The translations under genes were made by a program, and so were the position numbers. Below are positions 56,243 through 62,168 of a stretch of DNA of 64,000 nucleotides, piece after piece. Numbering within the stretch: the stretch's first letter is position 1; each line of letters opens with the position of its first letter. The stretch is from NCBI RefSeq assembly GCF_000724545.1, contig NZ_JHBV01000046.1, forward strand, positions 1 to 64,000, in the 5' to 3' direction. A model generated the notes under the pieces. It made no database searches. It was given only the letters and a program-made list of their open reading frames with translations, and was not told where the DNA came from. The stretch is from Aureispira sp. CCB-QB1 (GTDB taxonomy: Bacteria > Bacteroidota > Bacteroidia > Chitinophagales > Saprospiraceae).

Positions 56243-57301
56243 TCAATATACTTTGTTGACAAACCCGTTGGCAACATAGGTTGATCCTTTGGAAATAGAA
56301 AGAATGGTATAAGTTTTAAAGTCACCCTCTATTTTTTGAATAGACTCTATACGCTCAAAACTTGTCTTGCCAGTTTTTTCATCAAAAACCATGACTTGCA
56401 CCTCTGTTTGGGACAATGCCTTCCAAGTTTGCTTATTTTTTTGGTTTCTTAATTTTGCCAACGACACAAATCCCTGTCCTTTGATATATAAAGGATGATC
56501 AGGAGTAATTGAAATTTGATAGGAAGCCGTTTTTACATCCAATAAACTCAAATGACGTTGATTGGTTGTCAATTCTACTGCAGATTCGAATGTTTGAGAT
56601 GTCTCCAAATCAATGGCCAACAATGTAGTCCCGACAGTCAATCCTTCTACCATTTTTGTTGTGTTATTTGCTAGACTAATTTGAGTAGTTGGTGCAAAAC
56701 AACAAGCAACATGATCGATATGAGAAATACAAACATCTTCCCACTTTTCTCCTTTGTATACGTCTACTATTTCAAATTTAAAATTCTCTTTTGTTTCCCA
56801 GTTGATGTGATGTGGTAATTCAAAATGCTGTGCTCCCATTTCATCGGTCAAATCCAAGTAACAAATTGGCTCACCATGTCGATACACCTTAAACCGCTTT
56901 ACCCTTGAATTATATCTCCAGTTTTGAGGACTAGACTGATAACCGTTGTAAATCACATTCACAGTAATTGCTTTGACCTCAAAAGATTCACCAATACCAT
57001 ACCCTTGTACCCCTTCTACCCAAGCTGTCATTGGATTATCGTCTGACAAGTTTCCTATGTTATAATTTTTAGAACCTTGCCCTTTTAGCGTGGATGAAGC
57101 ATGTATTGGTGTTACACCTTGCGCACAATCGTTGTAAAAGAAACCAGGATTTTTCTCATCGGCATCTTCCGCTTCTTGCACCGATCGCCAATCTATTTCT
57201 ACGCCATCTCCTCCTTTGGCTTTTACAACAGGCAGCTGCGCCTGAACATGAACAAAAAAGAAGCACCCAAGAAACGTTGTTGACAATAATTTAAAATTCA
57301 T
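56243..57301 (-). CDS. Secreted glycan-binding plus Hint-domain protein
   Basis: Signal peptide (LLSTTFLGCFFFVHVQAQ). Residues ~55-195 are an NADase-type/F5-8-like glycan-binding domain: NLSDDNPMTAWVEGVQGYGIGE, VIYNGYQSSPQNWRYNSRVKRFKVY. From ~200 a Hint module begins at Cys in CFAPTTQISLANN (block A), with Thr and His in ITPDHPLYIKG (block B), and ends GSTYVANGFVNKVY at the very C-terminus. There is no C-extein, so the layout is that of hedgehog proteins: secreted binding domain, then a self-cleaving Hint. Cleavage could release the N-part or pass it to a nucleophile (inference). Confidence 0.8.
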   Translation of the reverse strand: MNFKLLSTTFLGCFFFVHVQAQLPVVKAKGGDGVEIDWRSVQEAEDADEKNPGFFYNDCAQGVTPIHASSTLKGQGSKNYNIGNLSDDNPMTAWVEGVQGYGIGESFEVKAITVNVIYNGYQSSPQNWRYNSRVKRFKVYRHGEPICYLDLTDEMGAQHFELPHHINWETKENFKFEIVDVYKGEKWEDVCISHIDHVACCFAPTTQISLANNTTKMVEGLTVGTTLLAIDLETSQTFESAVELTTNQRHLSLLDVKTASYQISITPDHPLYIKGQGFVSLAKLRNQKNKQTWKALSQTEVQVMVFDEKTGKTSFERIESIQKIEGDFKTYTILSISKGSTYVANGFVNKVY

Positions 57302-57667: not shown

Positions 57668-58144
57668 ATGAAAATAATAAATACACATACTGGAGAAGAA
57701 TACAAAGGAGAAATAGAGCAACTTAGAAAATCTGATGTTTCTAAACTAAATGAAAATGACAATTTTGAATTTGATTGGTCGAAAGAATCTGAAAATGATG
57801 TTTACAAAATCAGACGAAAAGGAATCGATGAAACTTTAGGTTTAATCTCACTTACTGATTATCCTAAAGAAAAAAGAATTCATATAAACTTAATTGAGGC
57901 ATCTAAAGAAAATGTTGGAAAGAATAAAAAATTTAAGAATATTGCTGGAAATTTAATTGGATTTGCTTGTAAAAAAGCATTCCAGAAAGGCTATGATGGT
58001 TTTGTTTCTCTCCTACCTAAGACAGAACTAATTCCAGTTTATATTGCTTATGGCTTTAAAAAAGTTGGACTGTTTTTGGCTGTCTTCCTCAAAGCTTCCG
58101 AAAATTTAAAATCTAAATATCTTGAAGATGATGAGAGAATATGA
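57668..58144 (+). CDS. GNAT-like acetyltransferase, putative toxin
   Basis: 158 residues. The C-terminal half has a GNAT-like layout: IHINLIEASKENVGKNKKFKNIAGNLIGFACKKAFQKGYDGFVSL, with the helix after the acetyl-CoA loop, and IPVYIAYGFKKVGLFL, the family's Y-x-x-x-GF end. The acetyl-CoA loop (N-V-G-K-N-K-K) is not canonical Q/R-x-x-G-x-G/A. It overlaps the XRE gene by 17 nt, the layout of type II toxin-antitoxin pairs. The toxin role is inference. Confidence 0.6.
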   Translation: MKIINTHTGEEYKGEIEQLRKSDVSKLNENDNFEFDWSKESENDVYKIRRKGIDETLGLISLTDYPKEKRIHINLIEASKENVGKNKKFKNIAGNLIGFACKKAFQKGYDGFVSLLPKTELIPVYIAYGFKKVGLFLAVFLKASENLKSKYLEDDERI

Positions 58145-58670
58145 GAAAATATATAAAGAGCTTAGAAAAAAATTCAGTGATGAAGAAATTGCTGAATCTA
58201 TGCTTATTCCTGCTGATTTAACGGAGGAAGAAAAAGAAAAAGCAACAGAAAAGTTATTAGCTTTTCGATTTAAATTACTACAAGAGCAATCTGAAAAAGA
58301 AAGAATATATTCAGATTTACTTCGATTCAAATATCAAATGGAAGACTATATAGAAAATAGTATTTATATAGATGGAAAAAGTTTTGGTAAACATCTTGAA
58401 GAATATACTCGCATTCTAAATAGAACTAAAAAGAAATTATCTGAAGATTTGGATATTCATTACACTCGCTTAAGCCAAATCATTAATGATAAAAAAGAAC
58501 CCAATATTGAATTGACTTATCGTTTAGAAAAACATTCTGGCAATCTTATCCCTGCTGTGTATTGGTGGAAATTAATCATAAAAAAACAAGAAGCATCTAT
58601 AAAAAAAGATAATAAAACTAGAAAAATAGAAGCGTCTAAGGTTAGTAATGCTATGAAATTTAGTGCATAA
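58128..58670 (+). CDS. XRE-type HTH protein, putative antitoxin
   Basis: ATG at 58128 (TTG at 58122 and ATG at 58131 are alternatives). The N-terminal ~75 residues are charged helices (LTEEEKEKATEKLLAFRFKL). Residues ~75-155 carry a helix-turn-helix close to HigA antitoxins: FGKHLEEYTRILNRTKKKLSEDL, then HYTRLSQIINDKKEPNIELTYRLEKHSG and the YWWKL end. The start lies inside the GNAT gene. Probably represses the pair and neutralises the partner (inference). Confidence 0.75.
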   Translation: MMREYEKIYKELRKKFSDEEIAESMLIPADLTEEEKEKATEKLLAFRFKLLQEQSEKERIYSDLLRFKYQMEDYIENSIYIDGKSFGKHLEEYTRILNRTKKKLSEDLDIHYTRLSQIINDKKEPNIELTYRLEKHSGNLIPAVYWWKLIIKKQEASIKKDNKTRKIEASKVSNAMKFSA

Positions 58671-59708: not shown

Positions 59709-62168
59709 TTATTTATTCTCCCCTCGTCCACTTCGATTCACATCTCTAGCAGAAGCCTGCTGTGTTCCGAACATTAGGATATCCTGAATATTCACATGAT
59801 CGGGTCTCGTGGCAACATAGTAAATTGTCTCGGCAACATCACGTGCAGAAAGAGGTTTAAAGTCCTCATAAATTTTTGCTTTTTCCTTATCCTCATAACG
59901 TACCTCTGCAAACTCTGTTGCTTCTACATGTCCAGGGCTTACACAAGTTACCTTAATATTGTGTTGATACAAATCCAAACGCATAGATTGTGTCAAAGAA
60001 TCAACAGCAGCTTTAGTCGCACAATACACACCACCACCAGGGTAAACCTGCGTTCCAGCCACAGAACCTAGATTAATAACATGCCCCTTCTTACGTGCTA
60101 CCATATTGGGAGTTACCATGCGTGTCATGTACAACAACCCTTTTATGTTTGTATTAATCATTGTTTCCCAGTGCTTCACGTTGCCTTCATGAATAGAAGC
60201 TAACCCTTTTGCCAATCCTGCATTGTTAATCAATATATCAATATTAGACCATTCTTCGGGCAAGCTATCCAAGGCATTTTTGACTGCATCCAAGTCACAA
60301 ACATCAAAATTCAAACTATGAATATGTGTTTCTTCTAAATGCTCCTCCATCAATTGCTGAAACTCATCCAAACGTTCTTTTCGGCGACCAGTAATAATCA
60401 CTTTGTAGCCAGCCATAATAAATTGACCAGCAATAGCCTGTCCAATTCCCGAACTCGCTCCTGTTACCATCACCACAGTATCTGCATTAGGACTTCTTTC
60501 CTCTTCAATTACTTCCTCTTCCTCCTCTAGTTCCTGAACAGCTTCCTCTACTTCATCCTCCAATATGCGAAGCACTCCAAAATAATTGTCATTTTCTGCG
60601 GTTTGAAATTTAGCAGCATCCAATACACAAGCCTGCAAATAGTTAGCTTTTGCTTGGTCAATCATTCCCATCTCTCTTTGACATTGCGCCAAACCTAGAT
60701 AAGCATCTTCAAACATCGAATCAATTAACAAAGCTTCTCTAAAAGAGTCGCTTGCTTTGTTATAAGACTTAAAGTATTCTTTTTGCAACAAAGCATATTC
60801 ATAGTACAAAGCAGCGTTATCATCATTGACCATAATTGCCTTGCGGTACAAATGTGCTGCCTCCATTGTCTCTCCGTCGTAATGTCTAGCCAACAAACGA
60901 GCCAACCAGATTAATGCTCGACCATTATAAGGATCCAGTTTAAGAATACGTTCGTATGTTCTTCGAGCATCCTCAAAATCTCCTTCTTCCGCATTACTTT
61001 CTGCTATATGAAATAGGATATCTACATCCTCTACCTCATCTATATTATATTGTTCCAATATAGCCTGTGCATCTACACTATCTAGATCTTTCAACCCTTC
61101 CATTGTAAATGGGAGCTCTACTTTATCCTCTTCAGATTCATCAACAATAGCAGTAGTTTCTTCTGGTTTCTCTTCTAGTTCTTCGTTGACCTCCTCTACT
61201 AACTCTGCTAGCACTTCTTCTTTGACCGTCGCCTCAGGTTCAGTCAAGATTTCCTCTATTTCCTCCTCTATTAATTCTGCTTCTGGTTGTTCTTCTGTTG
61301 CTTCATTTAAGGTAACTTCTGGCAATGGCATTGCTTCGATTGGCTCTTCAGAAACCACCTCTTCTTCTATTTCTTCTTTTGTTTCCTCTTCGTTTTCTGA
61401 AGTTGTAGGAAGTTCTTCTTCGTTTTCGTTAGAAGGTATTTCAGATGCAGATACCTCTACCGCTATGCTTTCTTCATCGCCTTTTAAGTCCAATACTTCT
61501 GTTTCCACATTTTCCTCCACAACCACTTCCTCAACAGGTATCTCAATAGTAGGAATTTCTGAGACTTCTTCCTCCTCTTCTCCCTCAACAAAAACTCTTT
61601 CAATACCAACTTTATCAAAAAGCATTTTGTAATCATCGGCACACAACTCATCCCAATCGGCAGGTTCGGTACTGTTAATTTTTCGAATAAAATTCGAAAT
61701 ACTACCCACTGACATTTTTTTAGCAATCTCTTTTTGCTCATTCAAAGCTTCCTGCTCTTCTATAGGAGCACTTTTAGATTTTTTGCGCAAAGCAATCCAT
61801 TCTTCATACCAAAAATCTCTGTAATACATGACATTATTTAGTGTCTGAATTTTGGTAGGATACACTTCCATCTGAGAAGTCCCCACTTTTAGACGGCGAC
61901 CATGCGTAATAACTGGAATTATTCGATTTTCTAGATCTTCATCTAACAAACGATCTAAGTGCGTTGTTTCTTGAATAGATTTGAGGTAATTATCGCTCAC
62001 TAAAAGAAGTCCTGTTGCGTCTTCTTTTTCTACCAATTGCGTTACCTTCTCAGCAGTTGGTGCCGCAACGATACAATTAATATTCGTGTGCTTTAAATCT
62101 TTAGCAATTTGATTGGCCTCTATTTCATTAGCCTCAGAAAAAAAGATATAAACAGTGTGCTTTTGCAT
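59709..62168 (-). CDS. TIR-like / TPR / short-chain dehydrogenase fusion, 819 aa
   Basis: Residues ~1-130 have a TIR-like alternating alpha/beta pattern (VYIFFSEANEIEANQIAKDL; GLLLVSDNYLKS; RIIPVITHG), but no clear catalytic Glu was found. Residues ~198-370 are a very Glu-rich linker. Residues ~375-545 form TPR repeats (DFEDARRTYERILKLDPYNG; AAHLYRKAIMVNDDNAALYY; ASDSFREALLIDS). Residues ~560-808 are a complete SDR of the YdfG type: VTGASSGIGQA, NNAGLA, and S-x(11)-Y-C-A-T-K. The frame is continuous with ATG at 62168. No signal; cytoplasmic. It probably couples an NAD(P)-binding enzyme to a scaffold. Substrate unknown. Confidence 0.8.
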   Translation of the reverse strand: MQKHTVYIFFSEANEIEANQIAKDLKHTNINCIVAAPTAEKVTQLVEKEDATGLLLVSDNYLKSIQETTHLDRLLDEDLENRIIPVITHGRRLKVGTSQMEVYPTKIQTLNNVMYYRDFWYEEWIALRKKSKSAPIEEQEALNEQKEIAKKMSVGSISNFIRKINSTEPADWDELCADDYKMLFDKVGIERVFVEGEEEEEVSEIPTIEIPVEEVVVEENVETEVLDLKGDEESIAVEVSASEIPSNENEEELPTTSENEEETKEEIEEEVVSEEPIEAMPLPEVTLNEATEEQPEAELIEEEIEEILTEPEATVKEEVLAELVEEVNEELEEKPEETTAIVDESEEDKVELPFTMEGLKDLDSVDAQAILEQYNIDEVEDVDILFHIAESNAEEGDFEDARRTYERILKLDPYNGRALIWLARLLARHYDGETMEAAHLYRKAIMVNDDNAALYYEYALLQKEYFKSYNKASDSFREALLIDSMFEDAYLGLAQCQREMGMIDQAKANYLQACVLDAAKFQTAENDNYFGVLRILEDEVEEAVQELEEEEEVIEEERSPNADTVVMVTGASSGIGQAIAGQFIMAGYKVIITGRRKERLDEFQQLMEEHLEETHIHSLNFDVCDLDAVKNALDSLPEEWSNIDILINNAGLAKGLASIHEGNVKHWETMINTNIKGLLYMTRMVTPNMVARKKGHVINLGSVAGTQVYPGGGVYCATKAAVDSLTQSMRLDLYQHNIKVTCVSPGHVEATEFAEVRYEDKEKAKIYEDFKPLSARDVAETIYYVATRPDHVNIQDILMFGTQQASARDVNRSGRGENK

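Follow-up and report, generated by a model that had tools for sequence, protein, structure and literature searches.

TIR domains have been discussed mostly as parts of immune signalling or as NAD-cutting enzymes, whose substrate is mainly NAD+, and the adaptor TIRs of animals gave up NAD cleavage. Among the SDRs, those of the YdfG type are tetramers, and an arginine pair after strand 2 is a mark of the SDRs that use NADP(H). Published accounts describe TIRs canonically as scaffolds acting by multimerisation (PMC8494770), TIR and TPR domains as common in conflict systems (PMC7159879) and a conserved glutamate as required for catalysis by all the TIRs examined (PMC10022894). Here, we analysed a stretch of 64,000 nucleotides from Aureispira sp. 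CCB-QB1 (contig NZ_JHBV01000046.1, positions 1 to 64,000; the whole stretch is called the window below), in which a TIR-like start, a Glu-rich stretch, TPRs and an SDR lie in one gene. The family referred to throughout is that of the window, taken to be the Saprospiraceae.

The gene is one intact frame with an ATG start and without internal stop, and its coordinates and those of its parts are collected in Table 1. An earlier note on this DNA, made from the sequence alone, had proposed this single-frame arrangement; the 819-aa ORF and its Pfam matches confirm it, with the correction that the gene lies on the minus strand. Besides the TPR_19 match (43.3 bits, cut-off 25), further TPR models hit the window protein at about residues 383-500, and the helix pairs at 382-516 of the full-length model are arranged as tandem TPR helices. 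The full-length AlphaFold2 model was made from a six-row alignment and reached a pLDDT of 56 and a pTM of 0.41, with poor modelling of the TIR start and of large parts of the SDR; residues 167-366 have a pLDDT below 50. Because this model is poor, we leave contacts between the domains unclaimed. The short helices that follow the hairpin continue to about residue 187 in a separate model of residues 1-190.

Table 1. Features of the fused gene in the window
Feature	Position in window	Strand	Basis
Whole fused gene, TIR-like / linker / TPR / SDR, 819 aa	59709..62168	-	ORF, translation and Pfam
TIR-like core, aa 1-109	61842..62168	-	Pfam TIR_2 below cut-off; MyD88 profile match; AlphaFold2 model and structural alignment
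His70, at the TIR catalytic Glu column	61959..61961	-	alignment of family loci and relatives
Helical hairpin following the core, aa 110-166, with Y116 and invariant W120	61671..61841	-	AlphaFold2 model; conservation
Disordered Glu-rich linker, aa 190-365	61074..61601	-	pLDDT below 50; composition; length differs among relatives
TPR array, about four repeats, aa 382-530	60579..61025	-	Pfam TPR models; paired helices with block pLDDT 79-92
Second short acidic linker, aa 540-558	60495..60551	-	sequence; pLDDT below 50 at 539-543 and 546-557
YdfG-type SDR, aa 559-819; N674, S702, Y715, K719, R595-R596	59709..60494	-	Pfam, NCBIfam, PDB, alignment

Two other regions of the window were also inspected. 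On the minus strand, positions 56243-57301 encode a possibly secreted, self-processing protein, in which Hint/Vint matches below the cut-off come after an F5/8-type 'NADase translocation' domain (PF25302, 1.5e-32). On the plus strand, two small frames overlap within positions 57668-58670; the first has no Pfam match and looks GNAT-like by eye, the second carries HTH_3 below the cut-off, and together they are perhaps a toxin-antitoxin-like pair.

Taken alone, the N-terminus of the window protein gives a TIR_2 match at residues 6-90 with E=4.9e-4 and 21.0-22.1 bits, which lies below the Pfam cut-off of 28. When the family was considered as a whole, TIR_2 matched 37 of 49 family N-domains at E<=0.1 (best 7.6e-7), while each other Pfam family matched at most three of the 49. 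In addition, a profile of these 49 N-domains searched against the PDB found the MyD88 TIR as its top match at 2.2e-6, followed by designed Rossmann-type proteins at E 0.004 or worse. With almost complete coverage of its length, the family profile also recovered TIR proteins from other Bacteroidota, as in the case of L126 (1.1e-15), itself a clear TIR_2 protein with 63.4 bits. Structure prediction of residues 1-190 from six sequences gave an AlphaFold2 model with a pLDDT of 90.9, and VIA-align placed TIRs first against it (Cat1 with Z 11.4, a plant TIR with 11.1, TcpB with 11.0 and PdTIR with 10.9). The fold alone would not decide, because response regulators score up to Z 10.2 and the best Foldseek match, a plant TIR, reaches an E of only 2.9e-3; the absence of ThsB from the 50 structural matches listed by VIA-align is neutral for either reading. 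A receiver, a flavodoxin or another Rossmann domain in place of a TIR was ruled out, since sequence comparison ranks TIR first. On sequence and predicted fold together, the N-terminus of the window protein is firmly assigned as a TIR domain, in agreement with the TIR-like start that the first inspection had seen.

The SDR end is the most readily recognised part of the protein. No other Pfam match comes near that of adh_short at residues 565-759 (E=8.1e-56, above cut-off). The best solved structure is 3asu (E=6.8e-65 over nearly the full SDR length), which we take to be E. coli YdfG, and the best NCBIfam model is YdfG (PRK10538) with 258.6 bits, short of its equivalog cut-off of 411. The motifs TGASSGIG, NNAG and YCATK are all found in the window SDR, and their key residues do not vary in its relatives. 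Indeed, the glycines, N674, S702, Y715, K719 and R595 are invariant in 94 of 94 aligned SDRs (46 fused, 2 split, 17 standalone and 29 from outside the family), so that the intact, catalytically equipped SDR of the first description is borne out. R595 is found in 46 of 46 fused SDRs and R596 in 45 of 46, and this arginine pair, with the YdfG grouping, suggests that the window SDR uses NADP(H). We infer from the sequence that it would be an NADP(H) reductase or dehydrogenase acting on small 3-hydroxy acids, 3-oxo acids or aldehydes.

The fusion proved to be widespread in the family. When residues 1-192 were searched in 298 genomes of the order, 44 matched, all of them Saprospiraceae, and an N-domain profile then matched 131 of 219 Saprospiraceae genomes in 74 of 112 genera, leaving 88 of the 219 without a match. 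Note that eight of the 131 matching genomes have weak matches only (at most 45 bits), namely six that were fetched plus G701 and G794; the matches fetched from the six are other TIR proteins with the catalytic Glu and without an SDR in the stretch. In a sample of 395 genomes from the phylum, 13 matched, of which three were Saprospiraceae; among the ten outside the family, four cover nearly the whole profile and have no SDR (checked with Pfam for L126). Both family-level searches combined, with one locus per genome, gave 130 loci, in 114 of which the TIR-like part and the SDR share one frame. Nine others end at or near the end of a contig or stretch, five encode the SDR next door in a frame of its own (three from genus g28, plus L285 and L296), and two, L263 and L302, have no SDR in the stretch, L302 lying near a contig end. 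In L285 and L296, the SDR frame has a TPR-sized start of its own, with the break ahead of it; the break may stem from faulty sequencing of draft genomes. Among 80 genomes sampled from the class, the 62 SDR relatives found beyond the family are all standalone, in open frames of 253-362 aa. In the genomes sampled, the fusion is thus confined to the Saprospiraceae.

This spread answers the doubt whether the fusion belongs to a single assembly. G753, another genome of this species, has the gene, with an SDR whose identity over 257 aa rounds to 100% and an N-domain that scores the same as that of the window in the family profile search, and the window fusion is therefore no assembly artefact. An assembly chimera or the oddity of one assembly was ruled out by G753, by G813 and by the 114 loci of 130 that are fused. 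Nor did the open-licence PMC literature contain a description of the TIR-TPR-SDR order, of a TIR from Saprospiraceae or Aureispira or of TIR with YdfG, and the view that no system of this order has been described stands within that literature. Several proteins depart from the usual layout. The frame at L263:1494-4016 (minus strand) encodes an 840-aa TIR-TPR protein with no SDR at its end or within 1.5 kb downstream, and that at L223:1747-3645 (plus strand) a protein of 632 aa with a TIR-like part, a Pro/Glu-rich linker and an SDR but no TPR match in Pfam. Five further Saprospiraceae TIR proteins (L211-L214 and L217) have the catalytic Glu, a membrane segment by eye and a C-terminal part without an assigned family.

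The column of the catalytic glutamate is where the family departs from NADase TIRs. It is occupied by G in 36 of the 130 loci, N in 23, R in 17, Q in 14, D in 9, H in 7 and K in 7, with E in 6, S in 4, A in 3, L in 2, T in 1 and F in 1. The NADase Glu is thus missing in 124 of 130, including the window with His70, in line with the earlier note, which had found no obvious catalytic Glu in the TIR-like part. The loss is not universal, because six loci have the residue: G192, G760 and G817, which belong to one genus, and G768, G798 and G799. Among the non-fused TIR relatives with long matches, Glu is kept in 14 of 14; the shorter and weaker non-fused matches L090-L095 comprise three with Glu, two without and one with a gap. 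We built a tree of the 130 family N-domains and the 14 fetched non-fused relatives with long matches, leaving L090-L095 out. On this quick tree, a branch with an SH-aLRT of 99 separates all the family N-domains from the 14 relatives, and the state of the Glu column changes five times, on a tree with long branches.

Other positions of the same domain are strongly kept. All 130 loci have W120, and at position 116 there is a Tyr in 128 of them and a Phe in two (window numbering; the alignment of the 130 loci runs one lower, as an inserted residue was dropped), while the five columns of S-D-N-F-L are 78-96% conserved. The Trp is visible in the sequences of all 14 non-fused relatives, and the Tyr in part of them. 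With Glu gone in 124 of 130 loci and W120 and position 116 kept, catalysis therefore appears lost and structure kept. It had been suggested that the fusion couples NAD consumption by the TIR to an NAD-using SDR. Shared NAD chemistry is not supported by our results, because the TIR Glu is missing in most members and the SDR groups with NADP-dependent YdfG and looks NADP(H)-type.

The linker behaves differently from the domains. The acidic fraction of the region between TIR and SDR ranges from 0.15 to 0.31 with a median of 0.19 in 43 members, and the window protein, at 0.31, is the highest of them. The Glu-rich linker is lineage-specific and found in some members only; the earlier note was right about it for the window protein, and it does not hold as a general trait. 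These fractions ruled out that the acidic linker is a functional part conserved in the family.

To follow the history of the locus, 32 Saprospiraceae genomes were chosen to hold both kinds, 13 positive for the N-domain and 19 negative. The SDR was found at E<=1e-35 in 31 of them, fused in 11, split in two and standalone (251-265 aa) in 18; G284 has none, and one of the standalone genomes, G676, has a second, weak SDR match. The gene immediately upstream is an AhpC-TSA/redoxin gene (Pfam identification from the L053 copy) in 30 of the 46 loci with a fused or split SDR and in 16 of the 18 with a standalone one; at the latter it is on the same strand, from a 20-base overlap to a 65-base gap, and has a lipoprotein-type start by eye. 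Since the SDR stands behind the same redoxin gene whether fused or standalone, the TIR-TPR part was gained by or lost from an existing gene and, in many genera, lies between two genes that adjoin elsewhere. In the window and in L002 and L003, which are of the Aureispira type, the redoxin gene does not adjoin, and a gene on the opposite strand, rsgA in the window, is found there. As for the wider surroundings, a protein that has no Pfam match and is about 178 aa long is found at 10 of 18 standalone loci and at position -2 in 16 TIR-bearing loci. The gene order of the family (L191-L208, L039-L073) runs from this protein to the redoxin-like lipoprotein and the SDR with or without TIR-TPR, and 14 loci have nearby, mostly at position -3, a gene resembling by eye an SDF-type symporter.

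Distances between N-domains and between SDRs are correlated over 46 loci (r=0.73, with 0 of 2000 permutations as high), and joint inheritance of the two parts, as read from these distances, is supported. The fused label changes seven times on the SDR tree (bootstrap 6-8; the starred branches force two). One early fusion followed by several losses is the history that appears favoured, because the fused N-domains form one group and their divergence tracks that of the SDR; the alternative would be transfer of the whole locus. In genus g28 (L051, L059 and L268), the TIR-TPR part and the SDR are two frames, 8-11 bases apart. This split is probably later, because both g28 SDRs placed on the tree nest among fused SDRs (96/97), on a long branch (0.81).

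As to function, we give about an even chance to the reading that the TIR-TPR part is a mostly non-NADase arm for assembly or regulation on the YdfG-type SDR of the Saprospiraceae. The SDR end would act as an NADP(H)-dependent YdfG-like oxidoreductase, and the TIR-TPR part, in most members, would no longer be an NADase but an interaction arm. YdfG-type SDRs being tetrameric, each enzyme would carry four such arms, which suits multivalent assembly or partner binding. TIR-TIR contacts would be multiplied by the SDR oligomer while the TPR contacts a partner, so that both kinds of contact could assemble, place or regulate the enzyme, with the disordered linker lending the arm reach. A more specific scenario can be offered tentatively, although we would not call it probable: an immune TIR-TPR protein was taken from conflict biology and kept, through much of the family's past, as a non-catalytic arm for assembly or allostery of a core metabolic reductase, TIR-TIR association switching or arranging the reductase. 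The arrangement of the reductase by TIR-TIR association into filaments, for example, belongs to the same scenario and is equally tentative. Against an arm, the TIR-TPR part is dispensable, as 18 of the 32 genomes (a sample that holds both kinds) have the SDR without it, L223 has no TPR match, L263 has TIR-TPR with no SDR nearby and six members have the Glu.

The same facts could be read as decay. If the TIR-TPR part had been fused by chance early and had been drifting since, as a passenger of an SDR that is the sole working part, then the mostly missing Glu, a mean identity of 29% in the N-domain versus 62% in the SDR and the many lineages with the SDR only would be expected, as would the separation in the three g28 genomes, with two placed SDRs nested among fused ones. 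However, the frames stay open in divergent genera, W120 is invariant, the S-D-N-F-L columns are conserved and the g28 split keeps both halves side by side, and we regard a mere passenger as unlikely. A role in defence, domesticated or active, with TIR-TPR sensing phage or stress and the SDR as effector or target, is suggested by the frequency of TIR with TPR in the conflict systems cited above and by the longest profile matches outside the family, which by eye are TIR-TPR, TIR-NTPase-WD40 and AlbA-like-TIR proteins (L126 being the one checked with Pfam). Such a role fits poorly with presence in over half of the family genomes (131 of 219, of which eight weak or unfetched), mostly once per genome, with conserved locus neighbours, unlike patchy defence genes, and with the existence of the same SDR outside the family without a TIR. 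In addition, no PADLOC family matched the fusion protein at E<=0.01 when the protein alone was scanned, by which a known defence system was ruled out for the protein itself; defence in the broader sense seems to us quite improbable.

Finally, the TIR-like domain might bind or cleave NAD(P) through another residue and so feed or sense the cofactor pool of the SDR. The six members with Glu and the alignment of the fold with TIR structures that contain NAD or its products would agree with this, but the other 124 of 130 have no Glu, which all the enzymatic TIRs examined need according to PMC10022894. Moreover, the Trp that precedes the Glu in three distant TIRs is not among the six commonest family residues at that place, and the SDR looks NADP(H)-type, as opposed to a TIR substrate that is mainly NAD+. 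We hold this to be very improbable. The family offers a natural experiment on the reuse of an immune module, in which a TIR is kept on a metabolic enzyme, mostly without its Glu, and sister lineages have the bare enzyme; the fusion protein is also an easily assayed enzyme for probing assembly driven by a TIR.

Compared with known systems, the window protein shares its fold with the NADase TIRs of defence (Cat1 at Z 11.4, SPARTA up to 10.3, AbTir at 9.9) and differs from them in that the window and 124 of 130 family loci are without the catalytic Glu and in that PADLOC has no match for it. With the adaptor TIRs of the MyD88 type it has in common a similar SD-x-[FY]-L-x-S loop and the absence of Glu at the column, whereas MyD88 serves animal immunity as an adaptor and has different partner domains; the Glu is probably missing independently in the two. 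On the enzyme side, the window SDR shares all catalytic residues with the dehydrogenases of the YdfG type, namely 3asu, yeast YMR226C (3rku) and sulfoacetaldehyde reductase (6ixj), but these are single-domain proteins of 248-287 aa, while the SDR of the window protein comes after 558 residues that make up the TIR, linker and TPR. The TIR-TPR proteins of other Bacteroidota, such as L126 (487 aa) and L129 (553 aa, found by the family profile at 1.7e-11), have the same extended TIR and conserved Trp helix followed by TPRs, and differ in keeping the catalytic Glu and in having no SDR (judged by eye for L129). The TIR-TPR-SDR protein is a new combination of known parts, widespread in one family and with a TIR that is mostly degenerate.
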